From Chloroflexota bacterium (GTDB lineage Bacteria; Chloroflexota; UBA11872; UBA12225): a stretch of 34,817 bases of DNA. The stretch lies in NCBI GenBank assembly GCA_016199265.1, contig JACQGX010000364.1, forward strand, positions 1-34,817, given 5' to 3'. A program made the position numbers and the translations under genes. Shown piece after piece: positions 251-32,876 of the stretch (the first letter of the stretch is position 1; every line of letters begins with the position of its first letter). The notes below the pieces were generated by a model. The model made no database searches. It saw nothing but the letters and a program-made list of their open reading frames with translations, and was not told where the DNA came from.

Positions 251-1096
251 GTGACTCTCGCCGACCGCTATCCGCCCCTGGTTCGCACCCATGCGCTGGG
301 ACTCACACTCCACCTCCTCGCCGCGCACGCGGCATCGCGCATGGAGTACCGTGCTAACTTCCTCCTCGGCGTGGTTAACGGCCTCGGCTTCCAGCTCGCG
401 GGGCTGGTTTTTGTCTGGGCGGTGCTGCACCGCTTCCCATCGCTCGGCGGCTGGAGCTTCGGCGAGGTGGCCTTCTTATACGCGCTGCGCCTGCTCGGCC
501 ACAGCCTGTACCTGCCGTTTCTCCAGAACGTCGTCGGCCTCGGGGAGCTGGTGCAGAGCGGCGGGCTCGACCGGCTGCTGCTCCGCCCCGTCCACCCTCT
601 GCTGCTGGTCGTGAGCCAGGCGTTCCAGGTCCAGGCCGTGGCGAACCTGCTGGTCGCCGGCGCGGTCTTCTACGGTGCGCAGGCCGCTCTGGACGTCGCG
701 TGGAGCGTGCCGAGACTCGTCTTCTTCGTGCTGGCACTGGCGGGAGCCGTGCTGATCGAGACGGGCGTGCACCTGTTCCTCAGCACCCTGTCCGTGTGGC
801 TGGTCAGCTCCAAGAGCCGGCTCAACGACTGGGCGGATGGCCTGTTCAGCTCGTTCGGCAGCTACCCCTTTACGGTGCTCAACCGACCGCTGCAACTCGC
901 GTTTACCTTTCTTCTTCCGCTCGCCTTCGTCGCGTACTTCCCGGCGGCGCACCTGCTGGACCGCCGCGACGAGGGCGTGATCGGCATCCAGCCGCTGTTT
1001 GCCTACGCAACTCCGGCGGTTGGCGTTGTCACCCTTGCCGCCTCGCTCGCGTTCTTTGAGTTCGCCCTGCGCCACTATCGGTCGACGGGACACTAA
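251..1096 (+). CDS. ABC-2 family transporter permease (PF06182-like)
   Basis: 281 aa, multiple TM segments, MEYRANFLLGVVNGLGFQ / FLQNVVGLGELVQSGGLDRLLLRPVHPLLLVVSQ typical of this permease family; tandem with the preceding permease. Confidence 0.8.
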   Translation: MTLADRYPPLVRTHALGLTLHLLAAHAASRMEYRANFLLGVVNGLGFQLAGLVFVWAVLHRFPSLGGWSFGEVAFLYALRLLGHSLYLPFLQNVVGLGELVQSGGLDRLLLRPVHPLLLVVSQAFQVQAVANLLVAGAVFYGAQAALDVAWSVPRLVFFVLALAGAVLIETGVHLFLSTLSVWLVSSKSRLNDWADGLFSSFGSYPFTVLNRPLQLAFTFLLPLAFVAYFPAAHLLDRRDEGVIGIQPLFAYATPAVGVVTLAASLAFFEFALRHYRSTGH

Positions 1097-1097
1097 A

Positions 1098-1122
1098 GCA
1101 AGTGCAAAGTGCAAAGTGAGAA
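1098..1122. repeat. Heptanucleotide tandem repeat (GTGCAAA)n
   Basis: GTGCAAA GTGCAAA GTGAGAA, starting 6 nt after the stop codon of the permease. Confidence 0.6.
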
Positions 1123-1319
1123 TGCCTGTGGGTCCCTCCTTGGCTTTGGCCTAGGGCGGGGCCGGTAGGCCCGAGATCGCTGCCTATCCGGTGGCGTGCG
1201 TGGGGCGGTCCGCGCGTGCCGTGCCGCGTCCCGCGCCAGGTCGAAGTAGACCTCCGGGGGGCATCGACAAGGGTCGCCGCCGCCGGCTCGACGGCCACCA
1301 CGCGTTCCGCCGGCCCACT

Positions 1320-3011
1320 CTAGCGCTCCAGAAACAGCGGCGCCACCAGGTTGTCCACCGGCGCGTAGTCGTCGGTCAGCACCGGCGCGTTCGGATGGCG
1401 CTCGGCCAGCCAGCGATCGATCCGCGCCGGATCGACGACGCGGGCGTGCGCCGGGGCGGACCCATCAGGCGAAGGGCGCATTATCGCCTCCAGCCGCGCC
1501 GCGTCGAGCGGCTGCTGTGAGCCGACGACCAGCCACGGCAGCCGCAGGTCGTACTCCCAGCCTACCTCCTGCACGCGCACGACGGCAACGTGCGGGAACA
1601 CCTGGCGCATCGTGCGGACAAACGCCGGCAGAAACCGGCCGCTCGGCCACTTCTCGGCGATGTTGGCGACGTAGATTCCGTCGTCGCGCAGCAGGCCGCG
1701 GAGGCGCTGATTGAACTCGAGCGTCGTCAGGTGCCAGGGCACCGCGCGATCGCTGAACGCATCGCCGAAGACGATGTCGTACGCCAACGCCGGCAGGCGC
1801 GTCACTTCGGTGCGGGCGTCGCCGTGGATCACGCGGATGCCGGGAGCACGACTGCTCCTCCCGACCCCACCGGCCTCGTTGCTGCCCTGGCCCACTCCAG
1901 GCGGGCCGGCGAGCCGCAGGCCGAGGTGAGTCTGCGCCACGGCGGTAATACCGGGATCGATCTCGACGACGTCGATCTGGCTGCCGGGATAGACGCGCTC
2001 GAGGTACCGAGGGACGGTGTAGCTGCCGCCGCCGATCACCAGCGCGCGCAGCGGCACCTGGTCCGTATGGTCCGTGCCACGCCGTTCCGGCGCGTCGCGG
2101 CGCTCCGCCTGGTACACCGCGATATCGGCGAAGACCTGGGCGTTCGACCAGACGAGCAGCCGCGGCTCGGCCGGCGCGGTCGAGCCGTGATTGAGGCGGT
2201 CGAGCAACAAGGCGTTGAGCTCAATTCCACTGTACCGCCCGCGCTCGATCCGGATACAGTTGTAGGCCGTCTCCCGGAGGCAGGCATTCTCATCGCGCGC
2301 CCAGGCGAAACCAAACCCGATGCCGACGAACATCGCGCCGGCGATCACCGCGCCGGCCACTCGGCGCTCGGCCGAGGCGCTCCGTTCACTGCGCCAGCGG
2401 GCGGCGATGAACAGCACGTAGACCGCCAGCACGAACAACCCGGCGCCGACGGCCATCAGAATGGCGCGCGAGCCAAAGGTGGGGATGAGCACGAACCCGG
2501 TCAGAAACGTTCCGGCGATGCTGCCGGCGGCCGAGACGGCGCCCAGCCGGCCGACGACGGCGCCGGCCTCGGCCACCCGGCGCACGGTGAGCTGGGCGAC
2601 AAACGGCGTCACCGTACCCAACAGCGCGCTCGGGAGGAAGAAGAGCGCGACGACAAGCGCAACGAGGCGCGGCAGCGGCGGCAGTTGGGGCAGCACCGAT
2701 TCGAGGCTGACGGCGCGCACAAAAATGGCCACCGCCCAGGTGACGACGCCTGAGGCGAGCAAAGCGAGGCCCAGCGCCGCCGGTGAAGACGATCGTTTCG
2801 CCAGCCGGCCGCCGGCGTAGTTGCCGGCGGCGATCCCGGTGAGGACCACGCCGATGATGCTTGTCCACGAATAGAGCGAAGCGCCGACGACCGGTGCGAC
2901 GACGCGGCCGGCGACGATCTCCAGCACGAGCACCGCCAGGCTGCTGGTGAACGCGAGCAGGTAAGACTGCCAAGGGGACCAGACAGGCCGGGCAGGCGGC
3001 GCAGCGAACAT
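1320..3011 (-). CDS. Fused membrane protein / spermidine synthase-like protein
   Basis: 563 aa; N-terminal multi-TM half, C-terminal SAM-dependent spermidine-synthase-like fold (ALVIGGGSYTVPRYLERVYPGSQIDVVEIDPGITAVAQ; IRVIHGDARTEVTRLPALAYDIVFGDAFSDRAVPWHLTTLEF). Confidence 0.88.
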   Translation of the reverse strand: MFAAPPARPVWSPWQSYLLAFTSSLAVLVLEIVAGRVVAPVVGASLYSWTSIIGVVLTGIAAGNYAGGRLAKRSSSPAALGLALLASGVVTWAVAIFVRAVSLESVLPQLPPLPRLVALVVALFFLPSALLGTVTPFVAQLTVRRVAEAGAVVGRLGAVSAAGSIAGTFLTGFVLIPTFGSRAILMAVGAGLFVLAVYVLFIAARWRSERSASAERRVAGAVIAGAMFVGIGFGFAWARDENACLRETAYNCIRIERGRYSGIELNALLLDRLNHGSTAPAEPRLLVWSNAQVFADIAVYQAERRDAPERRGTDHTDQVPLRALVIGGGSYTVPRYLERVYPGSQIDVVEIDPGITAVAQTHLGLRLAGPPGVGQGSNEAGGVGRSSRAPGIRVIHGDARTEVTRLPALAYDIVFGDAFSDRAVPWHLTTLEFNQRLRGLLRDDGIYVANIAEKWPSGRFLPAFVRTMRQVFPHVAVVRVQEVGWEYDLRLPWLVVGSQQPLDAARLEAIMRPSPDGSAPAHARVVDPARIDRWLAERHPNAPVLTDDYAPVDNLVAPLFLER

Positions 3012-3024
3012 CGTGAGAGTATAG

Positions 3025-3131
3025 GCGTGAAGCGTGAAGCGTGAAACGTGTACTACCCGGCTGCCCTGTACAACAGCAGGTGCCGTTTACCAACAAGCGC
3101 CGCATCACAGCTCACGCTTCACGCTTCACGC
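3025..3131. repeat. Inverted pair of GCGTGAA heptad arrays
   Basis: Left arm 3025-3050 GCGTGAA x3 + ACGTG; right arm 3111-3131 CTCACGCTTCACGCTTCACGC is its reverse complement in sense. Confidence 0.8.
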
Positions 3132-3152
3132 ATAGTACTCTTGGGCAAGCAC

Positions 3153-3181
3153 TTGCTGTGCTCCTGCTTGACACCTATAAT
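3153..3181 (+). promoter_or_regulatory. Sigma70-like promoter
   Basis: TTGCTG - 17 nt (tgctcctgcttgacacc) - TATAAT; best consensus promoter I saw in the window, pointing into a long leader. Confidence 0.55.
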
Positions 3182-3187
3182 CAGCAC

Positions 3188-3961
3188 CCGGTAGCGACCC
3201 TCCTTCGTGCGCTACCAGTGACCGGCTCTTGGCTCGCCGGCGGCGTTGCCGGCGATGCGCGGTGCGGACGCATCCGATGTGTCGGATGCGCTGACGTGGG
3301 GCTCTCGGCGGGAGTCCGGTTGCTGGCAAGTGGCGAAAGAGCAAAACGCATGTCGCTTCCACCAGGGCCCGGCGGCCCGCCGAGCGGCGCAACGTCAGGA
3401 GGTGTTGCGCGGCGGGCGATCCCGCCTCCTCTGTCCGTCGCCGGCATTCGACGATGAGCCGGGATTTATGAACACAGACGGACGTTCCCGGGAGACGTGG
3501 AAGCCGCGGTAACTGCATAGCGCGCGAAAAGTTCGGGGAACAACGGAGCCTTGCGCGGGAGGCGTCGAAGGTTCGGCTTCCGGCCGAAACGGATGCACCG
3601 CGGCCACCATGACCCATCCCCAACGTATCAAGCACTGATGCTGCCCCACGGACGGCTCATGGGTCTCCCGGCAGGCCGTTGGATCTTGGACCCGGCCCAG
3701 CCGACCTTGCCGGCTGGCGTATTCCCGGTAGCACGCGGAGACGAAGCCGGTCCACGCGGCCCCTCGGCGCACGCGGGTGCAGGCAATGGTTCCGGATTCT
3801 TCTCCGCTCGCCCTGAGCCTGTCGAAGGGCGCCCTTCGACAGGCTCAGGGCGAGCGATGTATGGCCCGGAAGTTTTACCTGCACCCGCGCACGCCCTGCG
3901 TGACCCGTCAGGATTCCTTTCCCTAACCCCGGCTTCGACGCGCGAGCTACAGGAGGTTTCC
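3188..3961 (+). ncRNA. Long structured 5' leader / putative regulatory RNA upstream of CHAP gene
   Basis: Strong promoter upstream; multiple long complementary segments: GGTAGCG..CGCTACC, GCGCAAC..GTTGCGC nested in GCCCGCC..GGCGGGC, CCGCGGt..TGCAT with ATGCAcCCGCGG, GACCCAT..ATGGGTC, CGCGGGTGCAGG (3772-3783) with CCTGCACCCGCG (3878-3889). No credible ORF. Confidence 0.4.
3805..3856. repeat. Dispersed palindromic element, copy 1 (26-bp perfect arms)
   Basis: CGCTCGCCCTGAGCCTGTCGAAGGGC|GCCCTTCGACAGGCTCAGGGCGAGCG; same family as 9903-9967. Gives spurious ORF peptides such as PEPVEGRPSTGSGRA / LSLSKGALRQAQGER. Confidence 0.9.
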
Positions 3962-4552
3962 TTGCTCACGACGTCTTTCCGTTTTGCTGCCGATCGGGCA
4001 GCGCCTGGCCTCCAAAGCGCCCGACCCGGTGTTCGTTTCTTCCGACTCTCACAACGGATCGCAGCCGCCGTGGTTGCGTCCCTGTTGGTGCTCGGCGCCG
4101 GTGCGTTGGTGCCACGACCGGCGTACGCCGCATACAACTGCGTCAACGTGGTGTTACGTGACCCGTATTGGGGGCGGTACCGAGGCATCGTCGAAAGTGG
4201 CTGGAACGCGGCCGGTATCGGCGCCGCGTTCGCACGCAACGGCTTCGCGGTGGATGGCACGCCGTCAGTCGGCGCCATCATGGTCTGGCCGGCCGGCTAC
4301 TACGGCGCGAGCGGCACCGGTCACGTCGGCGTTGTCGCTGCCGTCCATGGCACCGGCAGCGTGCTTGTCCGGCATGAAAACTGGCCCTACGGCGCCGCCG
4401 AGCACGCCCAGGTGTTCACCGTGCGTCCCGGCCATCAGTTCGTCCACAAGATCGTCGCGGTACCGGCCGTAGCCGCCGCCGCTGAGGCGCCGGAAACCGA
4501 AGACGAACCCGCCGAAGAGGTCGTCCAAGCCGAAGAGCCGGCCGAGGCGTGA
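3962..4552 (+). CDS. Secreted CHAP-domain protein (putative cell-wall hydrolase)
   Basis: TTG start 5 nt after AGGAGG (3951-3956); signal-peptide-like LSQRIAAAVVASLLVLGAGALVPRPAYA; then AAYNCVNVVLRDPYWGRYRG...VGAIMVWPAG...GHVGVVAAVHGTGSVLVRHENW, CHAP-like Cys/His pattern. The longer ORF start at 3551 is not credible. Confidence 0.65.
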   Translation: MLTTSFRFAADRAAPGLQSARPGVRFFRLSQRIAAAVVASLLVLGAGALVPRPAYAAYNCVNVVLRDPYWGRYRGIVESGWNAAGIGAAFARNGFAVDGTPSVGAIMVWPAGYYGASGTGHVGVVAAVHGTGSVLVRHENWPYGAAEHAQVFTVRPGHQFVHKIVAVPAVAAAAEAPETEDEPAEEVVQAEEPAEA

Positions 4553-4783
4553 AACGTGAAACGTGAAACGTGAGCTCAGGCAGTAACTGGTCGCAAATGG
4601 GCACCGCTGCCGCGCGATGAGCCGCTGGTAGGGGCGAAGCATTGGCCGAACCAACACGGCGCACCGCACCAACGTCTCGGCGAATGCTTCGCCCCTACAC
4701 TATCGGACCGATAGACCGCCCCTGTTGCCGGAGGATGCGGCTTCGCAGTTCACGTTTCACATTTCACGTTTCACATTTCACGC
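4547..4783. repeat. Inverted pair of ACGTGAA / TTCACGT heptad arrays enclosing an inner inverted repeat
   Basis: Left arm 4547-4574 GCGTGAA ACGTGAA ACGTGAA ACGTGAG (contains the CHAP stop codon); right arm 4749-4783 TTCACGT TTCACAT TTCACGT TTCACAT TTCACGC. Confidence 0.85.
4628..4698. repeat. Inverted repeat, 22-nt arms, one mismatch
   Basis: GTAGGGGCGAAGCATTGGCCGA (4628-4649) vs reverse complement of 4677-4698 GTAGGGGCGAAGCATTCGCCGA. Confidence 0.85.
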
Positions 4784-4826
4784 CTCGTGCGGTCCCGCTG
4801 GCAGATATGGTCCACTTTAGGCATCT

Positions 4827-6665
4827 ATGGCACCACCTGATAAAGCCCGACCGTCGAGTAACCCGGAGTCCGTGCCCGGCGCGGCGCTCGTCGCCGCGCC
4901 GGGTCTCGCCGCCCGGCGGCGCGGCGAGACTTGGTTTGGCAACAACGACGTCGCCAGCTTCATCCACCGCGCCTTTACCAAGGCGATGGGCTACGACGAC
5001 GAGGATTTGCGCCGCCCGATCATCGGCATCTGCAACACGTGGAGCGAGCTCAACCACTGCAACCACGGCCTGAAAGATGTCGCGGCCGCCGTCAAGCGCG
5101 GCGTCCTGCAGGAAGGCGGGCTGCCGCTCGAATTTCCCACCATCTCCATCGGTGAGGTGTTCGTCAGCCCCACCAGCATGCTCTTCCGCAACCTGGCGGC
5201 GATGGACACCGAGGAAATGATCCGGGCGCAGCCGCTCGACGGCGTCGTGCTGCTGGCGGCGTGCGACAAGACAACCCCGGCGCAGCTCATGGGTGCCGCC
5301 TCGGCCGACGTGCCGGCGATGATGGTCACCGGAGGACCCATGCTCAACGGCCGCTACGAGGGGCAGGACCTGGGTGCGTGTACCGACTGCCGGCGCTACT
5401 GGACGGAGTACCGTGCCGGCACCGTCGACGAGGCGACGATGTGCGCGCTCGAGGACAACCTGTGCCGCTCGGCGGGGCACTGCATGGTGATGGGCACGGC
5501 GTCGACGATGGCCGCGTGCGCGGAGGCGCTGGGGATGATGCTCCCGGGCGGCGCGGCCATTCCTGCACCCGACAGCCGCCGCCTGCGCTTCGCCGAAGCC
5601 ACCGGACGGCAGATTGTGCGGCTGGCACGACAGGGCATCCGGCCGTCGCAGATCATGACGCACGCGGCGTTCGAAAACGCCATTCGCCTCCTGCACGCCG
5701 TCGGCGGCTCGACCAACGCGGTGGTGCATCTGGTGGCGGTCGCCGGACGGCTGGGCATTCGCCTGCCGCTCGAGCGCTTCGACGAGCTTTCCCGCACGAC
5801 GCCCTGGCTGGCCAACCTGCGCCCGTCGGGGCGCTACCAGATGGAGCAGCTCTTCGAAGTCGGCGGCATCCCCGCGGTGATGAAAGAGCTCGAGCCGCTG
5901 CTCGACCTCGACTGTCTGACCGCAACCGGTCTTACCCTTGGACAGAACCTCTCGCAGATCGAGCCGGCCGGCACGCGTTCCCCGGCGTCGATCAAGCGGA
6001 TGCGGGAGGTGATCGCCGCGCGTGAAGCGCCGCTCTCCGAAGAAGGGGGGCTCGCCATCCTGCGCGGCAATCTGTGCCCCGACGGGGCGGTGATCAAGCA
6101 CGTCGCGGCCTCGCCCCACCTGCTCAAACACCGCGGTAGGGCGGTCGTCTTCCGCTCGCTTGCCGACCTCTCGGCCGGGATCGATGACCCGGCGCTCGAC
6201 GTCACGCCCGACGACGTGCTGGTGCTCCAGAACACCGGCCCGGTCGGCGCACCCGGCATGCCCGAGGTAGGCAACCTCCCGATCCCCAAGAAGCTGCTCG
6301 AGCGGGGCGTGCGTGACATGGTGCGCATTTCCGACGCCCGCATGAGTGGCACCTCGTACGGCACCATCGTGCTGCACGTCGCGCCGGAGAGCGCGATCGG
6401 CGGCCCGCTGGCGGCGGTGCGCACCGGCGATCTGATCGAACTCGACGTCCCTGCGCGGCGGCTCGACGTGCTCGTCTCCGACGAGGAGATTCGGCGGCGC
6501 CTGACCGAGTTCACGCCGCCGCGTCCGGCCTACCGGCGGGGCTACGGCCGCCTCTTCCTCGACCACGTCCTCCAGGCGTCCGAAGGCTGCGACTTCGACT
6601 TCCTCGTCGGCGCTCCCGAGGACGCTCACGACGCCGCCCGCTTCGGCCGCGACCTGCGGACGTGA
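4827..6665 (+). CDS. IlvD/Edd family dehydratase (likely sugar-acid dehydratase rather than IlvD)
   Basis: 612 aa; GICNTWSELNHCNHGLKDVAAAVKRG, AACDKTTPAQLMGAASADVPAMMVTGGPM, GACTDCRRYW, GHCMVMGTASTMAACAEALGMMLPGGAAIPA, ISDARMSGTSYGTIVLHVAPESAIGGPLAAV. The CDKTTPA version is typical of the arabonate/xylonate dehydratase branch. Confidence 0.92.
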   Translation: MAPPDKARPSSNPESVPGAALVAAPGLAARRRGETWFGNNDVASFIHRAFTKAMGYDDEDLRRPIIGICNTWSELNHCNHGLKDVAAAVKRGVLQEGGLPLEFPTISIGEVFVSPTSMLFRNLAAMDTEEMIRAQPLDGVVLLAACDKTTPAQLMGAASADVPAMMVTGGPMLNGRYEGQDLGACTDCRRYWTEYRAGTVDEATMCALEDNLCRSAGHCMVMGTASTMAACAEALGMMLPGGAAIPAPDSRRLRFAEATGRQIVRLARQGIRPSQIMTHAAFENAIRLLHAVGGSTNAVVHLVAVAGRLGIRLPLERFDELSRTTPWLANLRPSGRYQMEQLFEVGGIPAVMKELEPLLDLDCLTATGLTLGQNLSQIEPAGTRSPASIKRMREVIAAREAPLSEEGGLAILRGNLCPDGAVIKHVAASPHLLKHRGRAVVFRSLADLSAGIDDPALDVTPDDVLVLQNTGPVGAPGMPEVGNLPIPKKLLERGVRDMVRISDARMSGTSYGTIVLHVAPESAIGGPLAAVRTGDLIELDVPARRLDVLVSDEEIRRRLTEFTPPRPAYRRGYGRLFLDHVLQASEGCDFDFLVGAPEDAHDAARFGRDLRT

Positions 6666-6670
6666 GAAGG

Positions 6671-6768
6671 GGTCAGCGGTCAGCTTTCAGCTTTCAAAAC
6701 CACGTATCACCGGATGATCAGCCGCCGACCGCTGACCGCCGACCGCTGACCGCCGACCGCTGACCGCT
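6671..6768. repeat. Inverted pair of heptad arrays (GGTCAGC/TTTCAGC and CCGCCGA/CCGCTGA)
   Basis: Left 6671-6698: GGTCAGC GGTCAGC TTTCAGC TTTCAAA; right 6722-6768: CCGCCGA CCGCTGA repeated three times + CCGCT. Starts 5 nt after the dehydratase stop. Confidence 0.88.
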
Positions 6769-6778
6769 AGAATTTCTT

Positions 6779-7390
6779 GTGGCCAAGCGCGTCACCAAAG
6801 GCAACCTCTGGGGCTACATTCAGAGCCGGCCATACGCGTCGGTCGCCGATATCCGCCGCCTCTTCATGATGGACGTGGAGGACGCGGCGATCGTCCCGAC
6901 GAGCGAGGGCAACTACTACATCGGCCTCCCGCAGCCGGCGGCCGACCTGGTCCGGCAGCTCTGGCAGGAGGGACGGATCATCCTGGACGTGAACCCGGAC
7001 CTCAAGGCGCGCGTCGTGCAGGGAATCTACGCGGCCCATGCGCCGCAGGGACGCCAGCCGGCGGCTTCCGGCGCTGCGACTGCGCTCAAGGACGCCAGCG
7101 CCTTCAGCACCTCGAGCGCCACACCGGCCGGGACGACCAAAGCGGCGAAAGCGAAGCCCCCAACGCCGCACCGACAGGCGGTGCCGGCGCTGGGCCTGCC
7201 CGCTGCCGAGGGCGGCAGTGTCGAGCCGCCCGCCAAGGCGGAGAGCAATAAGAGGCGCCGGCGGCGCTGGCGGCGAGCAGCGAGCGCCCCAGACGCTGCG
7301 GGTGGAGCGCCAGCGGGAGAAGCCGTACGTGATGGGCCAGCGGATACGGCAGCACCGGTGGCCGCAGGCGCCTCAGAATCGTCCTCGTAA
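6779..7390 (+). CDS. Conserved hypothetical protein
   Basis: GTG start; globular N-terminus MAKRVTKGNLWGYIQSRPYASVADIRRLFMMDVEDAAIVPTSEGNYYIGLPQPAADLVRQLWQEGRIILDVNPDLKARVVQGIY followed by low-complexity tail. Confidence 0.6.
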   Translation: MAKRVTKGNLWGYIQSRPYASVADIRRLFMMDVEDAAIVPTSEGNYYIGLPQPAADLVRQLWQEGRIILDVNPDLKARVVQGIYAAHAPQGRQPAASGAATALKDASAFSTSSATPAGTTKAAKAKPPTPHRQAVPALGLPAAEGGSVEPPAKAESNKRRRRRWRRAASAPDAAGGAPAGEAVRDGPADTAAPVAAGASESSS

Positions 7391-7434
7391 ACCATTGCCG
7401 TACACCGGTGGCGCGTGATAGAGTGCCCCCGGAC

Positions 7435-8682
7435 ATGGCATCTACCAGCGTTCGCACACGATGGACACCAGGTAAGGCCATGAAGCGCTCGGCCTCGACG
7501 GCCACGACAAACACGGCGGCGACAGACGGCGCACGTGTGCCGGCCACAGCGGACGAGCCGGCACGCGTGTGGAGCCGCCCCGCCGGTACCGGTGCGTCCG
7601 CGTGGCACCTCACGCCAAAGGCCAAACTGGTCACCTTCTGGACGTGCGTCGGCCTTGCGCTGCTGTTCCTCTGGGCGGTGCGCAGCATCGTGCAGCCGTT
7701 CGTTATCGCCATCATCCTGGCGTACGTGCTCAATCCCCTCGTGGTCGCCGTGTCCGAACGAGCGAAGGTGCCGCGCATCGTCGCCGTGACCGGGATCTAC
7801 ATCATTCTGGCGATGCTGCTCACGTGGGGCGCACTCGTCGTGCTGCCGGTAGCGACGCGCGAGGCGCGCGAGCTCGCGGTGGCGCTCCCTCGGCTCCTCC
7901 TCCAGTTCCAGGACACGCTGGCGCAAGAAGAGGCGATTGTCCTGTTTGGGGTAGAAGTCGAGATCTCGCCGCTGTCTGACGAGCTCACGCGCACGCTCGG
8001 CGGAATCGTCACCACTGCCTCCCATCGCCTGGTCGAGACGGCGGTGGCAACGGTCGAAACGCTGCTCAAGGGCATTCTGGCGCTGGTCGCCACGTTTTAC
8101 CTGCTGATGAACGGCGATCGGTTCAGAACCGGCGTGCGCCGGCTCACGCCGCCTCGATTCCGGCAGGAATTCGGGCCGGTGGTCAGCGACATCGACCGCA
8201 TCCTCGGCCAGTTCGTGCGCGGCGAGGTCCTGCTGATCGCGATTATGAGCTTCGCCACGTGGCTCGCGCTCACGCTCTTGGGCATCCGGTACGCGCTGAT
8301 CCTCGGCCTAATCGCCGGAGTGCTCGAGCTCATTCCGTTCATCGGACCAATCATGGCGGCGATACCGGCGGTGGCAATGGCGCTCTTTCAGCCATCGCCA
8401 CACGGCTGGTCGCCGCTGGTCAACGCCGGCGTCGTCGCGCTGACGTACTTCGTGCTGCGCCATGCCGAGGACTACTTTGTTATCCCGCAGGTCGTCGGAC
8501 GTGTCGTCGAGCTGCACCCGCTGGTGGCCATGTTCGCCATCTTCTCGGGCGCGGCGGTCGGCGGCATCTTGGGAATGTTCTTGGCAGTGCCGGTGGCGGC
8601 GGTGTTGCGCATCGTGGTGCGCTTCGTCTACTTCAAGCTGACCGAAGAGCCGGTCGAGCCGGTCGAGCCCACGAGTGATTGA
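7435..8682 (+). CDS. AI-2E family transporter / PerM-like permease
   Basis: Multi-TM; AVRSIVQPFVIAIILAYVLNPLVVAVSERAKVPRIVAV ... GVLELIPFIGPIMAAIPAVAMALFQ ... VVGRVVELHPLVAMFAIFSGAAVGGILGMFLAVPVAAVLRI. Start codon uncertain. Confidence 0.88.
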   Translation: MASTSVRTRWTPGKAMKRSASTATTNTAATDGARVPATADEPARVWSRPAGTGASAWHLTPKAKLVTFWTCVGLALLFLWAVRSIVQPFVIAIILAYVLNPLVVAVSERAKVPRIVAVTGIYIILAMLLTWGALVVLPVATREARELAVALPRLLLQFQDTLAQEEAIVLFGVEVEISPLSDELTRTLGGIVTTASHRLVETAVATVETLLKGILALVATFYLLMNGDRFRTGVRRLTPPRFRQEFGPVVSDIDRILGQFVRGEVLLIAIMSFATWLALTLLGIRYALILGLIAGVLELIPFIGPIMAAIPAVAMALFQPSPHGWSPLVNAGVVALTYFVLRHAEDYFVIPQVVGRVVELHPLVAMFAIFSGAAVGGILGMFLAVPVAAVLRIVVRFVYFKLTEEPVEPVEPTSD

Positions 8683-8739
8683 GTTACGAGTTACCGTGTC
8701 GCCGAGTCACGCCGAGGCGTGGAGGAGCATTGAGAAGCC

Positions 8740-9864
8740 ATGAGGGTTCCGCTACCAGGTAAGACGAAGGGGATGTTGCTGCCGCTACCGGCGGCTCAGC
8801 GACTGGGGCCGTCGATCGCCTCTCCGGCGTCGTCGCCGGCCTCGTTGCGAGCGGCGCCGTCGACCGCGGCACGTACGCCGACGCCGACGGCACGATCGGC
8901 CGCGCCGGTACCCGATGCGGTCGAAGGCACGCGCAACCGTGTCGTCGGCGTCGCCCAGCGACGCCTACCGCGCCCGATGCCGAAGCCGCGCGTGCGCCAG
9001 GAGATCGTCATCCGGCCGGCGGGGGAAGCCGACGCTGCCGGCTGCCTGGCGGTGAATACTAGCTACACGTCGAGTCACATCTGGCAGCTCGACACGCGCC
9101 ACGAGGGGGACGAGCTGCGGATCGCGTTCCGTGTCGTGCGCCTACCGCGCGAGCTCACGCAGATTGCCGGCCACGGGCTACCGCCGCTGCGCAACGGCGT
9201 GCCGCGTCGCGGCGTGCTCTGGCTCGTTGCCGAAGAGGTAGAGCTGCGCGACGAACCGGAGCTCACAGACGCCGGCCACGGGGACGCTCCTACCGGCGCT
9301 GCCGGCGCCGGCTATCGCGACGGACGCTGGCTCGCCCAGCCGGCAGCCACCACTTCGATGGCGTGGAACCACACCGTACGGCGCTCCGGTGGCGCTTCGG
9401 CCATTCAGCTCGGCCTGCCGTCACAGCCGGCGCATGCAGCGCACCCGGGCTACCCGGCCCAGACGGGTGGTACCGATGGGAGCCCAAACACAATGGGCAG
9501 CAGCCTTGCCGGCGGAGTACGCGAAGCTGACCTCGACCAGCACACGGCACCGGCGGACGCGCCGGCCGGCCGGATTATCGGCTACGTTACGGTAGCGACG
9601 GCGCGCGGCGACGAGACCGCGTACCTACGCGCGCTGATCGTCGATCAGGCGTACCGCCGCCGCGGCATCGGCGGTCGCCTGCTGGCCGAAGCGCGGCGCT
9701 GGGCCGCCGGCCAGGGCGCGGTACGCCTCACGACCGACGTCGCCGCCCGCAACTACCCGGCGCTGCGGCTGCTGCAAAAGGCGGGCTTCACCTTCTGCGG
9801 CTACAACGACCGCTGCTACACCAACTACGAGGTCGCGCTGTTCTTTTCCGCACCGCTGCGGTGA
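8740..9864 (+). CDS. GNAT-family N-acetyltransferase with large low-complexity insert
   Basis: EIVIRPAGEADAAGCLAVNTSYTSSHIWQLDTRHEGDELRIAFR ... GRIIGYVTVATARGDETAYLRALIVDQAYRRRGIGGRLLAEARRWAAGQGAVRLTTDVAARNYPALRLLQKAGFTFCGYND. Confidence 0.82.
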   Translation: MRVPLPGKTKGMLLPLPAAQRLGPSIASPASSPASLRAAPSTAARTPTPTARSAAPVPDAVEGTRNRVVGVAQRRLPRPMPKPRVRQEIVIRPAGEADAAGCLAVNTSYTSSHIWQLDTRHEGDELRIAFRVVRLPRELTQIAGHGLPPLRNGVPRRGVLWLVAEEVELRDEPELTDAGHGDAPTGAAGAGYRDGRWLAQPAATTSMAWNHTVRRSGGASAIQLGLPSQPAHAAHPGYPAQTGGTDGSPNTMGSSLAGGVREADLDQHTAPADAPAGRIIGYVTVATARGDETAYLRALIVDQAYRRRGIGGRLLAEARRWAAGQGAVRLTTDVAARNYPALRLLQKAGFTFCGYNDRCYTNYEVALFFSAPLR

Positions 9865-9865
9865 G

Positions 9866-9997
9866 GCGTGACGAAGAACGATGAACGACGACCGACGACC
9901 GATCCTTCGACAAGCTCAGGATGAGCGGGAAGTCGACCGCTCCGCTCGTTCTGAGCTTGTCGAAGGACAACCGGCGCCCCTTCGTCCGTCGTCGACT
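9866..9997. repeat. Inverted heptad arrays (GACGACC class) flanking palindromic element
   Basis: GCGTGAC GAAGAAC GATGAAC GACGACC GACGACC GATCCTT (9866-9907) immediately after the stop; ccccTTCGTCCGTCGTCGACTCGG on the other side (about 9977-10000). Confidence 0.7.
9903..9967. repeat. Dispersed palindromic element, copy 2
   Basis: TCCTTCGACAAGCTCAGGATGAGCGG (9903-9928) / CCGCTCGTTCTGAGCTTGTCGAAGGA (9942-9967): 26-nt arms, two mismatches, 13-nt loop. Confidence 0.88.
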
Positions 9998-10002
9998 CGG
10001 TA

Positions 10003-10031
10003 CACTCAGCGAGTCAACATCTCGCTGAGTG
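10003..10031 (+). promoter_or_regulatory. Perfect 11-bp dyad immediately upstream of hom start
   Basis: CACTCAGCGAG-tcaacat-CTCGCTGAGTG, ends 4 nt before ATG at 10036. Confidence 0.6.
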
Positions 10032-10035
10032 AACA

Positions 10036-11370
10036 ATGAACGTCAACCGCGCGCCGCGTGAGGCGCAACCAATCTACGTTGGGTTATTGGGCTTAGGCGT
10101 CGTCGGTGGCGGCGTCGCCCACCTGCTCTCGCAGAAGTCGGCGGCGCTCACCGCCGAGATCGGCCGGCCGATCGTCGTCAAGAGCGTGCTGGTACGCGAT
10201 CTCGCCAGACGCCGCAGCATTGACGTACCTGCCGGCCAGATTACCACCGATCCCGACGCGATCCTGGACGATCCGTCGATCGAGGTCGTCGTCGAGGTCA
10301 TGGGCGGCATCACGCCGGCGGCCGATTACATCCGCCGCGCGATCCGCAACGGCAAGCACGTGGTCACCGCCAACAAGGAGGTCATGGCGACCCGGGGCGT
10401 CGAGCTACTCCAACTGGCCAAGGAGCACGGCGTCGACGTCTACTACGAGGCGAGCGTCGGCGGCGGCATCCCGCTGATCGGCGTCTTCCGCCAGGACCTC
10501 GTGGCGAACGAGGTCGACCAGATCCACGCAATTATCAACGGCACGACCAACTACATCCTGACGCGCATGGCGCAGGATGCCGTCGACTTTGCGCCTGCGC
10601 TGGCCGAGGCGCAGGCGTTGGGCTACGCCGAGAGCGACCCGACCAACGACGTCGAGGGGATCGACGCCGCATACAAGCTGGCCATCCTGGCGTCACTCGC
10701 GTTTCGCACGCAGGTTTCGCCCGAGCACATCTACCGCGAGGGCATCTCGAAGCTGCGCGCCTCCGACTTCCGCTACGCACGTGAGCTGGGGTACGTCATC
10801 AAGCTCCTGGCCATCGGCCGGCGGTACGCGACCGAAGGCGGCGATGAGATCGAGGTCCGCGTCCACCCGGCGCTGATCCCGGCCGACTTTCTGCTCGCCG
10901 ACGTCAACGGCGTCTTCAACGCCGTCCACGTCCAGGGTGACCTCGTCGGCAACGTGTTGTTCTACGGGCGTGGCGCCGGCGCCCAGCCGACGTCGAGCGC
11001 CGTCGCCGCCGACGTAATCGACGTGGCGCATAACATCAACGCCGGAGTCGCCAACCGCATCCCGTTCCACTACGCCGGACGCCTACTGGTGCGCCCCATC
11101 CACCAGCTCGAAACGCGCTACTACGTACGGCTGTGGGCCGCCGACCAACCCGGCGTGCTGGCGCAGATCGCGCACGTCTTCGGCGATTACCGGATCAGCA
11201 TCGCCTCGTGCATCCAGAAAGAAACCGATCTCTCGGCAGGTGCCGCCGAGCTCGTGATCGTGACGCACCCGGCACGCGAAGCCGACATGCAGACCGCGCT
11301 ACGCGAACTCGCCTCGCTTGGCTGCGTCCGCGAGCTGGCGAACATGATCCGCATCGAGACGGTAAGTTGA
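10036..11370 (+). CDS. hom: Homoserine dehydrogenase with C-terminal ACT domain
   Basis: 444 aa: VGLLGLGVVGGGVAHLL, VTANKEVMA, YYEASVGGGIPLIGVFRQDL, INGTTNYILTRM, LAEAQALGYAESDPTNDVEGIDAAYKLAILASLAF; C-terminal DQPGVLAQIAHVFGDYRISIASCIQKE ACT-like. Confidence 0.95.
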   Translation: MNVNRAPREAQPIYVGLLGLGVVGGGVAHLLSQKSAALTAEIGRPIVVKSVLVRDLARRRSIDVPAGQITTDPDAILDDPSIEVVVEVMGGITPAADYIRRAIRNGKHVVTANKEVMATRGVELLQLAKEHGVDVYYEASVGGGIPLIGVFRQDLVANEVDQIHAIINGTTNYILTRMAQDAVDFAPALAEAQALGYAESDPTNDVEGIDAAYKLAILASLAFRTQVSPEHIYREGISKLRASDFRYARELGYVIKLLAIGRRYATEGGDEIEVRVHPALIPADFLLADVNGVFNAVHVQGDLVGNVLFYGRGAGAQPTSSAVAADVIDVAHNINAGVANRIPFHYAGRLLVRPIHQLETRYYVRLWAADQPGVLAQIAHVFGDYRISIASCIQKETDLSAGAAELVIVTHPAREADMQTALRELASLGCVRELANMIRIETVS

Positions 11371-11401
11371 GACGAAGGACGACAGCCGTCGTCCTTCGTC
11401 T
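11370..11401. terminator. Bidirectional hairpin between convergent genes
   Basis: AGACGAAGGACGAC-agcc-GTCGTCCTTCGTCT: perfect 14-bp stem, 4-nt loop, starting at the last base of the hom stop codon and ending just before the stop of the convergent gene. No U-run, so rho-independent function is unproven. Confidence 0.55.
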
Positions 11402-11403
11402 GG

Positions 11404-11763
11404 CTACCGGATACCGAACCCGACCGTCTTCGTCTCCTGCTCGGCGGATGCTTTGACCACTTCCTCGATGCTTTGATAGATCGTCTTGAAATCGACGGCG
11501 ATCTGATCGGCGGTCCGCGTGTCGTGCTGGTTCGCCGGTGGGATTTCGGCGGTGAGGTGTGGCTGCTCGCCGGCAACGGTCGATGCGCCCGTCTCCGTCG
11601 CGGCGGCCCCGCCGTCCTGCCCGGGCAGCCTGGTCTGCGTGCCTTCGGCGGTCGCGCCGGCTATCGTGTGCGCCGCCCCGGCGATGGGCCCGCGCGCCCC
11701 CGACAGCCGCGTGGCCGCCTCGATCATGGCGATAATTACCGAGTCATTGAGCGTTCTTGCCAT
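11404..11763 (-). CDS. Hypothetical protein
   Basis: MARTLNDSVIIAMIEAATRLSGARGPIAGAAHTIAG...DQIAVDFKTIYQSIEEVVKASAEQETKTVGFGIR; convergent with hom. Confidence 0.5.
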   Translation of the reverse strand: MARTLNDSVIIAMIEAATRLSGARGPIAGAAHTIAGATAEGTQTRLPGQDGGAAATETGASTVAGEQPHLTAEIPPANQHDTRTADQIAVDFKTIYQSIEEVVKASAEQETKTVGFGIR

Positions 11764-11853
11764 TCTGTCCTCGTCGTCCAATTTTCGTGCCGGCGCTTTC
11801 GCCGGCGCAGGTAGTCCATCCTTTGAATTCTAAACCCCCGCCGGATCTCGGAG

Positions 11854-11947
11854 TTCCTAGTTCCTAGTTCCTGGTTCCTGGTTCCTGGTTCCTGGTTCCT
11901 GGTTCCCGCCCTCAACCAGGAACGAGAAACTCGGAACTAGGAACTCC
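11854..11947. repeat. Inverted pair of TTCCTRG heptad arrays
   Basis: TTCCTAG x2, TTCCTGG x5, TTCCCGC (11854-11909); right arm CCAGGAA CGAGAAA CTCGGAA CTAGGAA CTCC (11916-11947). GGAGTTCCTAG/CTAGGAACTCC termini complementary; ends at the stop of the next (minus) gene. Confidence 0.92.
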
Positions 11948-12907
11948 TCAGAACCCGGCCCGCTTGTCACACACATTCATCAGCGGCTCGCCGGCAAGGA
12001 AGCGGCGGATGTTCTCGCGCAGGATCTGCTGGCCTCGCTCGACCGTCTGCCGCGACGCGCCCGAGCTGTGCGGCGAAATGATGACGTTGGGCAGCTCCCA
12101 CAGCGGGTGATGTGCCGGCAGCGGCTCCGGCTCGGTGGCGTCGAGCCCGGCGCCGGCCAGCCGACCGTTGGCCAGCGCATCGGCCAGCGCGTCCTGGTCG
12201 ACGATGCCGCCGCGCGACATGACGAAGAGGTACGCCTCCGGCTTCATCAACCGCAGCTCGCGCTCGCCGATCAGCCCGCGCGTCTGCGCGGTGATGGGAA
12301 TGGCGATCGCCAGGAAGTCGGCGCTGCGCAGCAGGTCGTCGAGCCGCTCGAGCGGCCACACTTCGGAGACACCGGGCGCCTGCGCCGCGAGGTTGACGTC
12401 GACCGCACGGATGTTCATGCCAAATCCCAGACCGCGCTGGGCGATCTCCGAGCCGATCTTCCCCAGCCCCACGATGCCGAGCACGCTCCCGCTCAGCTCC
12501 TGCACCCCTCGCGAACGGGTGGCGCGGTCCCAGCGCTTGATCTTCTTGTCCTCGAGCAGCGCCGGAATGTTGCGCGTAAAGGCGAGCATTAACGCAAAGC
12601 AGTGGTCGGCGATCGTCGCCGCGTGCGCACCGCGTGCGTTCGTCAGCGTCACGTGGTCCATCTCGATTAGCTCCGGCACCGAGCGGATGCGCTCGATTCC
12701 CGCGCTGGTGCAATGTACCCACCGCAGTCTGGCGGCCACGGGGAGAGCCTCTCGGGACGGCCATGAGATGATCGCGTCGGCATCGGGCAGCTCGCGCAAC
12801 TGCGCCTCCAGCGCCGGCGCGGCGACGAAAGTGGCGCCGGGAAACTCCGCACGCAACGCCTTCAGGCGCTCCTCCCCAACGTTCGTGGCAACGACAATCT
12901 TCGGCAT
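11948..12907 (-). CDS. D-2-hydroxyacid dehydrogenase (NAD-dependent)
   Basis: 319 aa: LSGSVLGIVGLGKIGSEIAQRGLGFGMNIRAVDVN; EAYLFVMSRGGIVDQDALADALANGRLAGAGLDATEPEPLPAHHPLWELPNVIISPHSSGAS. Confidence 0.92.
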   Translation of the reverse strand: MPKIVVATNVGEERLKALRAEFPGATFVAAPALEAQLRELPDADAIISWPSREALPVAARLRWVHCTSAGIERIRSVPELIEMDHVTLTNARGAHAATIADHCFALMLAFTRNIPALLEDKKIKRWDRATRSRGVQELSGSVLGIVGLGKIGSEIAQRGLGFGMNIRAVDVNLAAQAPGVSEVWPLERLDDLLRSADFLAIAIPITAQTRGLIGERELRLMKPEAYLFVMSRGGIVDQDALADALANGRLAGAGLDATEPEPLPAHHPLWELPNVIISPHSSGASRQTVERGQQILRENIRRFLAGEPLMNVCDKRAGF

Positions 12908-12952
12908 CGGCTCTCACTCCTCTTCGACCGGTGTGTTGTGGTGCGCAGATGA

Positions 12953-12979
12953 TAGTACGTGAGCGTCCCACACGTACTA
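12953..12979. promoter_or_regulatory. Dyad in divergent promoter region
   Basis: TAGTACGTG-agcgtccca-CACGTACTA, 9-bp perfect arms, between divergent start codons at 12907 and 13025; TACAAT (12978-12983, +) and TACTAT (complement of 12952-12957, -) overlap the arms. Confidence 0.55.
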
Positions 12980-13024
12980 CAATCCATGCGGCTACGGACC
13001 GAGAGGACGGAAACAGAACAACGC

Positions 13025-13804
13025 ATGAGTGATCGATTGGCCGGCAAAGTCGCGTTGGTGACGGGTGGTGGCGGCGGCATCGGCGAGGCAACGGCGCGCC
13101 TGTTCTGGGACGAGGGCGCGCACGTGGCGGTTGTGGACAGCGACGCGTCGGCAGCGCAGCGCGCGGCCGCGGGAATCGACAAGAGCGGCGAGCGCGTGCT
13201 CGCGATCGGCGCCGACCTCACGCAGGAGGTGGGGGCGGCACGCGCGGTACGCGAGACGGTCGAGCGCTTTGGCCGGCTCGACGTGCTGGCCAACGTCGCC
13301 GGCGTGCGAGTCTGGGGCCCAATTACCGAGGCGACCAAGAAATCGTGGGACTTCATCCTCGGCGTGAACCTGCTGGCGGTCGCGCACTGCTCGAAATTCG
13401 CCGTTCCCGAGATGGCGCGCCACGGCGGCGGCAGCATCGTCAACGTCTCCTCGGCCAACGCCATTCAGGGCCGTTCTGGCATGGCGCAGTACGATGCCAC
13501 CAAAGCCGCCGTGCTGGCGCTCACCCGCTCGATGGCGTACGACCACGCCGACCAGGGCATCCGGGTCAACGCACTGTGCCCCGGCCCGACACTGACGATG
13601 TTCCACGTCCGCCGCCGCGCCGCGGCCAAGGGCGTCTCGCTGGAGCAGGCCGAAGCCGAGATGCGCGCCGCCGGCGCACGCGTTCTGCTCAAGCGCCAGG
13701 CCGAGCCGCGCGAGATCGCGTATGGCATCCTGTATCTCGCCTGTGACGAGTCGTCGTACGTGACGGGGACGACATTGATGGTGGACGGTGGACTGAGCGC
13801 GTGA
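13025..13804 (+). CDS. SDR family NAD(P)-dependent oxidoreductase
   Basis: MSDRLAGKVALVTGGGGGIGEATARLFWDEGAHVAVVDSD; NVSSANAIQGRSGMAQYDATKAAVLALTRSMAYDHADQGIRVNALCPGPTLT; SSYVTGTTLMVDGGLSA. Confidence 0.94.
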   Translation: MSDRLAGKVALVTGGGGGIGEATARLFWDEGAHVAVVDSDASAAQRAAAGIDKSGERVLAIGADLTQEVGAARAVRETVERFGRLDVLANVAGVRVWGPITEATKKSWDFILGVNLLAVAHCSKFAVPEMARHGGGSIVNVSSANAIQGRSGMAQYDATKAAVLALTRSMAYDHADQGIRVNALCPGPTLTMFHVRRRAAAKGVSLEQAEAEMRAAGARVLLKRQAEPREIAYGILYLACDESSYVTGTTLMVDGGLSA

Positions 13805-13910
13805 AGCGTGAAGCGTGAAACGTGAAGCGGCGCACATCTGTGGATGGGGCCACGTTGCAGCACGAGGCGGCCCCGAACTTCACGTTTCACGCTTCACGCT
13901 TCACGCTTCA
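13801..13910. repeat. Inverted pair of GTGAAGC / TTCACGC heptad arrays
   Basis: GTGAAGC GTGAAGC GTGAAAC GTGAAGC (13801-13828, contains the SDR stop TGA); TTCACGT TTCACGC x3 TTCA (13879-13910). Confidence 0.92.
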
Positions 13911-13954
13911 GAGCACCAACGATAGTACGGTGATAAAACGAGGAAGGACAACCC

Positions 13955-15337
13955 ATGCCCAAGATCGCACTAATTGGCGCCGGAAGCGTCGTGTTCGCCC
14001 GGCGGTTGACGACCGACATTCTGACGTGGCCCGACCTGGCCGACGGAACCATTGCCCTGATGGACATCGACCCTTCCGGTCTGGAAATGATGAGCGCCTA
14101 CGCGCGGCGGCTGGTCGCCGAGCAGAAGCTGCCGACCAGGATCCTGGTTACGCAGGACCGAGAGGCGGCGATCGACGGCGCCGACTTCGTCATCACGAGC
14201 ATCGACGTCGGCGGGCGGGAGCTGCGCCAGCGCGACATCGAGATCCCGGCGCAGTACGGTGTCCACCAGACGGTGGCCGACACGATTGGCCCCGGCGGCG
14301 TCTTCCGCGCGCTGCGTACGACCCCCGTCCTGATCGACGTTGCGCGCGACATGGAGCGGCTGTGCCCGCAGGCGCTGCTGCTCAACTACGCCAACCCCAT
14401 GAACATCAACATGTGGGCGATCGCCGCTTCGACCAACGTACAGTGCGTCGGACTCTGCCACAGCGTGCAGGGAACGGCCGGCCAGCTCGCGCGCTACCTC
14501 GGGCTGGTCCACGAGGACCTGGCGTACTGGGTGGCCGGGATCAACCACCAGGCGTGGTTCCTCGAGCTGCGGCGCGGCACCTACCGGGGCGAGGACCTCT
14601 ACCCGCTGCTGCGCGAGAAGGTCGACGATCCCGAAGTCTACGACCGCGACCGCGTGCGCTTCGAGGTAATGCGCCACTTCGGCTACTTCGTGACCGAGTC
14701 GAGCCGCCACATGTCGGAGTACACGCCGTGGTTCCGGCGCACCGAGGCGCTGCGGGAGCGGTTCGCGCCGCCACCACCGGCCTGGATGCGTCAGACGCAG
14801 GCGGCTGCCACCGGGCAGGCGGCCGGTGGCGCGGCCGCGGCGGCGGCCGGCGCACCGGCGGCGGGCACGGCGATGCCCGGCGGTGGCCTGGCCCGACGCG
14901 TCGCCTACTACGACCGCATGCGCGAGCAGCTCGACGGCACCGAGCCGCTGCCGTTCGAACGGACCCACGAGTACTGCTCGCACATCCTGCACGCGGTCGA
15001 GACGAACACCCCGTACCGCTTCAACGGCAACGTCCCGAATGCGGGGCTGATCACCAACCTCCCACCCGGCTGCAACGTGGAGGTGCCGATCCTGGCCGAC
15101 AACACCGGGCTGCGGCCGTGCCACGTCGGCGAGCTGCCGGCGGCGTGCGCCTCGATCAACCGCACCAACGTCAACGTCCAGGAGCTGGCGGTCAAGGCGA
15201 TCCTCGAGCAGAACCGTGAGCTCGTCTACCAGGCGATCGCCCTCGACCCGCTAACGACGACGCAGTGCAGCCTCGACGACGTGCGGCGCATGACCGACGA
15301 ACTGTTCGAGGCCTCGGCCGCGCACCTCCGCTTCTGA
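13955..15337 (+). CDS. Glycoside hydrolase family 4 (alpha-glucosidase/alpha-galactosidase type)
   Basis: 460 aa: MPKIALIGAGSVVFARRLTTDILTWPDL, NYANPMNINMWAIAASTNVQCVGLCHSVQGTAGQLARYLG, WVAGINHQAWFLEL, PYRFNGNVPNAGLITNLPPGCNVEVPILADNTGLRPCHVGELPAACASINRTNVNVQELAVKA. Confidence 0.92.
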   Translation: MPKIALIGAGSVVFARRLTTDILTWPDLADGTIALMDIDPSGLEMMSAYARRLVAEQKLPTRILVTQDREAAIDGADFVITSIDVGGRELRQRDIEIPAQYGVHQTVADTIGPGGVFRALRTTPVLIDVARDMERLCPQALLLNYANPMNINMWAIAASTNVQCVGLCHSVQGTAGQLARYLGLVHEDLAYWVAGINHQAWFLELRRGTYRGEDLYPLLREKVDDPEVYDRDRVRFEVMRHFGYFVTESSRHMSEYTPWFRRTEALRERFAPPPPAWMRQTQAAATGQAAGGAAAAAAGAPAAGTAMPGGGLARRVAYYDRMREQLDGTEPLPFERTHEYCSHILHAVETNTPYRFNGNVPNAGLITNLPPGCNVEVPILADNTGLRPCHVGELPAACASINRTNVNVQELAVKAILEQNRELVYQAIALDPLTTTQCSLDDVRRMTDELFEASAAHLRF

Positions 15338-15521
15338 GGCGAGTCACCGCGTATCTTTTTGATACGCACTCGAAGTCGAATTGGAGCCGAACCGACGCCG
15401 GACACTTACCTAGTTGCCAACAACGTGTAACACGCGCGCCTCCCGATCTGCACTACACTTCGAAGCATCGGCCAGCATCGTCCTGCTACGGTGGTGCGAC
15501 ACCTGGAGCAGTCCGGACACC

Positions 15522-15549
15522 ACGGCAGACGGCAGACGGCAGACGGCAG
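15522..15549. repeat. Heptad tandem repeat (ACGGCAG)4
   Basis: Four perfect consecutive ACGGCAG units upstream of the AarF-like gene. Confidence 0.85.
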
Positions 15550-32684: not shown

Positions 32685-32685
32685 A

Positions 32686-32726
32686 TACGAGCGCGCTCGT
32701 AACAGATACGAGCGCGCTCGTATCTG
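32686..32726. repeat. Two copies of a perfect 16-bp palindrome TACGAGCGCGCTCGTA
   Basis: 32686-32701 and 32707-32722; the second extends to a 24-bp palindrome (32703-32726). An extra half-site CGCTCGTA lies at 32676-32683. Confidence 0.9.
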
Positions 32727-32876
32727 CAAGCATCTGCCCGAATCCTGCGCCCGAGAAGTACCCCGATGATCCCGAAAGAGTGCAAGCGTCTCGCCGCGGT
32801 TGACCTCCCAATTGCCGAGATCAGCGCTGGTAGGCACGGTACTCGCAAGACCGCACGTTGTGAACCCGGCTTGTAA

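Follow-up and report, generated by a model that had tools for sequence, protein, structure and literature searches.

Period-7 intergenic arrays of a Chloroflexota genome as probable arms of short dispersed palindromic elements

Nine heptad loci in the window

The window analyzed here, a stretch of 34,817 nucleotides, is one contig (JACQGX010000364.1, C324) of a 5.59-Mb Chloroflexota metagenome-assembled genome (GCA_016199265.1; 430 contigs, 77% complete), and between its genes it carries nine loci with tandem heptanucleotides (heptads). An earlier reading of the letters alone, the sequence-only reading, had described these loci as a family of period-7 intergenic elements with inverted arms at gene ends. 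All nine were present where it had placed them, and the description as such is supported by our analysis. The work presented here suggests that the arrays are the arms of several families of dispersed palindromic elements, one of which most likely inserts at TA dinucleotides.

The first locus is a plus-strand element of the AAGTGCA family at 1094..1153, with 56 bp (8 x 7) between TAs at 1094-1095 and 1152-1153; an ABC-2 permease gene (251-1096) uses the first TAA of the element (1094-1096) as its stop codon. It combines a heptad arm (1100-1118) with a plain partner arm (about 1139-1151), and the array at 1098-1122 does have a degenerate partner, CCTTGGCTTTGGCCTAG, at about 1139-1155. Three plus-strand elements belong to the GTGAAAC family. 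In the one at 3022..3134, arms at 3025-3050 and 3112-3131 enclose the family core (3051-3111). The element at 4547..4783 overlaps the stop of a CHAP gene (4552), and between its arms (4547-4573 and 4749-4783) it is interrupted by a nested palindromic repeat, GTAGGGGCGAAGCATT...CTTCGCCCCTAC (4628..4698, strand unassigned), an arrangement that recurs in the L011 copy of the element. The third, at 13799..13910, overlaps the stop of an SDR gene (13804) and has arms of 29 bp that are 100% complementary.

A GTCRGC-family element (6671..6769, plus strand) has arms at 6671-6696 and 6722-6768 and the right end GC/TA. The two words given for the locus at 6671-6768 are one, CCGCTGA being the reverse complement of GGTCAGC, and this word occupies both arms. 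At 9866..10000 (plus strand), GACGAM/GACGACC heptads flank a nested TTCGACAAGCTCAGG palindrome at 9903-9967. The hairpin listed at 11370-11401 does not amount to a separate array: it has only about two heptads (GACGAAG/GACGACA) per arm and is short and perfect, with a 13 bp stem (11371..11401, plus strand), directly past the homoserine dehydrogenase stop (11370). The AGTTCCT/GGTTCCT-family element (11850..11947, minus strand; arms 11850-11906 and 11914-11947) directly abuts the stop of a 2-hydroxyacid dehydrogenase gene (11948-12907, minus strand). Four perfect copies of ACGGCAG (15522..15549, plus strand) stand upstream of the probable start (GTG, about 15575) of an ABC1-kinase-like gene, and this is the sole unpaired locus. 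The inverted partner arms are real; the number of paired loci given in the sequence-only reading, six of nine, was too low and has to be raised to eight.

Dispersed families across the genome and in its relatives

To count periodic repeats, 84 contigs were chosen regardless of repeats (878 kb without N). Genes were called with a codon-usage model, the calls being approximate, and exact periodic runs of at least 12 matches were counted separately in intergenic and coding DNA. Intergenic DNA gave a sharp peak at lag 7 (55 runs) as compared to 1, 0, 0 and 3 runs at lags 4, 5, 6 and 9, which answers the proposed genome-wide comparison of lags in favor of period 7. Coding DNA peaks at lag 9 (21 runs) and has 13 runs at lag 7. 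A second intergenic peak at lag 8 (25 runs) accompanies 17 runs at lag 14. The statement that the period is always exactly 7 therefore holds inside the window, whereas the genome also contains an 8-nt class. The words of this parallel class, CGCAGAGA and CACGGAGA, form inverted arms about 50-230 nt apart (L030, L048, L079 and L098, own genome); CGCAGAGA has 40 exact 21-mer matches in its own genome and no match in 120 other Chloroflexota. Lag-7 arrays are nearly absent from relatives: stretches of 189 kb and 160 kb from two genomes of the same family contained none, and 80 other Chloroflexota loci gave four in 1.30 Mb. The period-7 phenomenon is real and lineage-specific.

Word recurrence and family profiles were counted over 1.16 Mb of the genome. 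The heptad words, thought to be specific to their loci, proved to be shared: each of 17 heptads is found at between 2 and 32 loci, and most words are spread across the genome, with AAAGTGC at 32 loci and GTGAAAC at 20 or more, the latter number being inflated by 16 stretches selected for GTGAAAC. In gaps printed whole, the heptad word points inward at either gap edge. Three families, AAGTGCA, GTGAAAC and AAGTCCA, are conserved beyond the heptads. The AAGTGCA family, with the consensus CTAAACC(AAGTGCA)n AAGTGAGG nnn CCTGCGGGTTCCACCTTGGCTTTGGTTTAG, gave 54 profile matches of 51-96 bp with conserved arms and core, and three exact copies of its word in tandem were matched about 120 times per strand in the genome, overlaps included. 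For the cores of GTGAAAC and AAGTCCA, mean pair scores were 23.8 and 15.2 as compared to 14.4 and 10.9 after shuffling. A 100-bp GTGAAAC consensus matches two window loci end to end, 3032-3131 (79%) and 13799-13899 (81%, consensus on the minus strand). Because conserved sequence extends beyond the heptads, these three families are regarded as dispersed palindromic elements. The families thus divide into proven dispersed elements on the one hand and those recognized from their arms alone on the other. The two commonest words mirror each other, AAGTGCA being ACGTGAA in reverse order, possibly by chance. A mirrored order of units, considered as a mark of copying from arm to arm, was set aside, the inner unit of GTGAAAC being the family consensus in both arms.

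The AAGTGCA core pattern was found neither in 84,980 species genomes nor in IMG/VR, scans from which the own genome was possibly left out, and none of 12 relatives matched the GTGAAAC consensus. The closest named relatives, AVDCRST_MAG77 (G004) and YX3bin23 (G002), belong to the same family and to other genera; the gene order CHAP-ilvD-6779-7480-GNAT-homoserine dehydrogenase-11404-11948 is partly conserved in both. Between ilvD and 6779, where the GTCRGC element lies, there are 113 nt including the heptad arms in this genome, as compared to 6 nt in G004; the remaining orthologous gaps of the relatives hold different sequence. G002 has one unexpanded AAGTGCA copy with two plain arms and no heptads, identified by one BLAST match (88% over 32 nt, E 1.4e-4) and a second arm matched by eye; its CTAA supplies the stop codon of a DapA-like gene. 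As the copy in this sister genus is unexpanded, heptad growth in the AAGTGCA family looks derived in the present lineage.

Several further repeats were encountered. The G002 gaps orthologous to window positions 4552-4872 and 9864-10036 (L152 and L153) contain other tandem arrays, with units of about 15-18 nt, which adjoin runs of N as if the assembly had broken inside them. In a groundwater Chloroflexota, an inverted heptad pair of unrelated word, AGGGTAG/CCCTATA (L207:11241-11299), lies 11 nt past a homoserine dehydrogenase match. In the window, TTCGACAAGCTCAGG-type palindromes occur at 3766-3895 as well as at 9903-9967, and chance open reading frames (ORFs) through them give RPEPVEG and FDKLRTSG peptides. 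A tandem palindromic GCTCGTA/TACGAGC repeat at 32676-32731 adjoins a gene end. An Rfam search of the window gave no match.

TA ends, empty sites and stop codons

AAGTGCA elements are short, multi-copy and without coding capacity. They end in imperfect terminal inverted repeats, CTAAACC...GGTTTAG, with related inner arms, in the arrangement C-TA/AACC...GGTT/TA-G. In 40 of 40 copies a C directly precedes the left TA, and at the right end TA is followed by G or A. In 22 of 25 copies the length between the TAs is divisible by 7 (49, 56, 63, 70, 77 or 91). When the element and one TA are removed from the sequence, a gap-free empty site results inside an AGTTCCT heptad array (L011, with L081 as the aligned copy) and likewise inside a GGGAGAGGG palindromic repeat (L028, compared to several loci). 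Judged by sequence, these empty sites look as expected from duplication of TA at a CTAG target, in the manner of IS630, which prefers TA within CTAG (Tenzen and Ohtsubo 1991, as listed among the references of PMC2170065). The AAGTGCA family is thus most likely a miniature inverted-repeat transposable element (MITE) of the IS630/Tc1-mariner type. In the GTCRGC family, TA is found at many element ends.

The proposed closeness of arrays to stop codons was confirmed. Of 76 gap edges on the stop side, 29 have an array no more than 10 nt away, where 10.9 would be expected and none of 500 shuffles attains 29; start-side edges are avoided (4 of 64 with an array within 10 nt, 8.6 expected). Genes that read into an element use the TA of its end as stop at 11 of 40 AAGTGCA ends and at 4 of 14 GTCRGC ends, TA/AACC giving TAA and TA/GCGG giving TAG, respectively. 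Beyond the interiors of coding sequences, 72 of 306 CTAG sites (24%) are stop codons; of the AAGTGCA ends not within coding sequences, 11 of 34 (32%) lie at stop codons, and therefore no extra stop preference is required. For AAGTGCA, the best-defined family, the adjacency to stop codons appears to be largely explained by the target site CTAG/TA plus selection. Some of the stops adjoining elements may have been created by the elements.

In the mechanism that we propose, a putative transposase supplied in trans would insert the AAGTGCA element at TA, preferring CTAG and duplicating the TA. Most insertions into coding DNA would be lost, and those at stop codons would survive as TA and the first base of the element recreate the stop, so that arrays would come to abut stop codons. 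An arm would then gain or lose exact units of 7 nt, most simply via slippage on a short tandem seed in the stem.

Origin of the arrays and known heptamer repeats

Overall, we consider it probable, at roughly 0.7, that the arrays form the terminal-inverted-repeat regions, or arms, of short non-coding palindromic elements that are dispersed, belong to several families and resemble MITEs or repetitive extragenic palindromes (REPs), with AAGTGCA as the likeliest IS630/Tc1-mariner-type member. The dispersed families, the three conserved cores, the length steps of 7 nt, the single-TA empty sites of AAGTGCA and the near-absence from relatives are direct observations. We infer that a transposase acts on AAGTGCA, that the other families are mobile as well, that slippage produces the steps and that no host function is required; the heptad-armed hairpin elements as a class are probably mobile.

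Several results weigh against this interpretation. The loops of GTCRGC, AGTTCCT and GGCRGTA are not conserved past the heptads, and those of GACGAA weakly so. No empty site was found for any family other than AAGTGCA, and in those other families TA duplication is absent or unproven. No transposase with ends matching AAGTGCA was found in the 77%-complete assembly. Its four DDE_3 (IS630-type) ORFs were considered as the source of the elements and gave no matching ends; the one with clear terminal inverted repeats, an IS630-type element (L161:162-1475), has 45-bp inverted ends unrelated to the heptad families and a frame split in two ORFs. A DDE_Tnp_1 transposase gene lies in the window at 33426-34256. 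Moreover, transposition by itself does not account for a step of 7 (or 8) that is common to many unrelated families of one genome.

The lack of loop conservation in AGTTCCT and GTCRGC would also suit ordinary heptanucleotide simple sequence repeats (SSRs), which would arise by independent slippage, with period 7 set by the contact length of DNA polymerase and inverted pairs formed by hairpin slippage or template switching. In many bacteria, SSRs with units of 5-11 nt most often have period 7 (Mrazek 2007, summarised in PMC4679880), and slippage probably generates the 7-nt steps within the elements. However, identical words at many loci, conserved non-heptad cores in AAGTGCA, GTGAAAC and AAGTCCA, and the gap-free empty sites of AAGTGCA argue against independent origins, and we regard SSRs as an unlikely account of the arrays.

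A function at gene ends, with the hairpins selected as transcription terminators or as protectors of RNA 3' ends, is less probable still. It draws on the arrays within 10 nt of stops and on strong predicted RNA hairpins at six of seven folded loci (3022-3134, 6666-6770, 9866-10000, 11371-11401, 11846-11950 and 13799-13910; z -4.9 to -10.2). However, the copy at 1094 folds no better than shuffles (z +1.6), and none of the T-tailed terminator-like sites is built by array arms, contrary to the suggestion of intrinsic terminators. The enrichment in convergent gaps is modest (13 of 78, as compared to 41 of 307 tandem gaps), orthologous gaps of relatives are without such arrays, and TA targeting already explains the placement of AAGTGCA. 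An enzyme of the telomerase or retron type that adds 7-nt units from a template, as envisaged in the sequence-only reading, would fit the 7-nt step that several unrelated families have in common in this lineage but not among its relatives, and is nevertheless highly improbable, since the sole reverse transcriptase found in the 77%-complete assembly is a truncated group II intron enzyme, with no Y1/RAYT transposase, many words would demand many templates, and a separate 8-nt class exists.

The interpretation as arms of dispersed elements can be compared to known systems. IS630/Tc1-mariner MITEs such as RUP of Streptococcus pneumoniae (PMC2229807) share the short, non-coding, dispersed form and inverted ends, and AAGTGCA further shares TA duplication, CTAG preference and insertion into other repeats. 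It differs in carrying 7-nt units in variable number along one arm and in that no autonomous partner with matching ends was found. REPs and bacterial interspersed mosaic elements with their REP-associated tyrosine transposase (RAYT) are likewise multi-copy intergenic palindromes, whereas here the arms are tandem heptads and no match to PF01797 (Y1 transposase) was found in the 77%-complete assembly. Heptamer repeats of Xanthomonas (GGGAATC) and Nostoc (GGGGA(C/T)T) consist of one G-rich word per genome; in Xcc, 70 convergent inverted pairs occur, coding-strand arrays lie within 50 bp of or overlap stop codons, and the authors found no general link of the repeats to mobile elements (Rehm et al. 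2015, PMC4692102). The common anatomy is intergenic position, inverted pairing and nearness to stops, and the difference lies in the many words of the present genome. TA ends or a core, both present in AAGTGCA, are not described in the parts of that study consulted. Cyanobacterial short tandemly repeated repetitive sequences and the TAACTGA arrays of Beggiatoaceae are similar as intergenic, lineage-restricted tandem heptamers; the latter lie mostly just upstream of start codons, with only one indirect repeat reported (MacGregor 2015, PMC4679880), unlike the present arrays, which avoid start-side edges. New are the many heptad words in one genome and the evidence that the array of one family is the growing arm of a TA-inserting element.

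In a rather doubtful extension, which we rate slightly above the SSR account, the arms of many unrelated palindromic elements might be lengthened in exact steps of 7 (or 8) nt by a factor that acts in trans and is specific to the lineage, be it a transposase, a polymerase or a repair enzyme, and arrays of heptamers in Xanthomonas and cyanobacteria might likewise be arms of TA-inserting elements. If so, what are called "heptamer SSRs" would form a single class of mobile hairpins. That some bacterial genomes are unusually rich in heptamer repeats has been noted since 2007, to our knowledge with no settled explanation. The inverted heptamer pairs of Xanthomonas that overlap stop codons lacked a cause, and here one family of arrays most likely represents an arm, variable in length, of an element that inserts at TA. 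This narrows the question to why the step is 7, and a search for TA ends and empty sites offers a direct test in the other heptamer-rich genomes.

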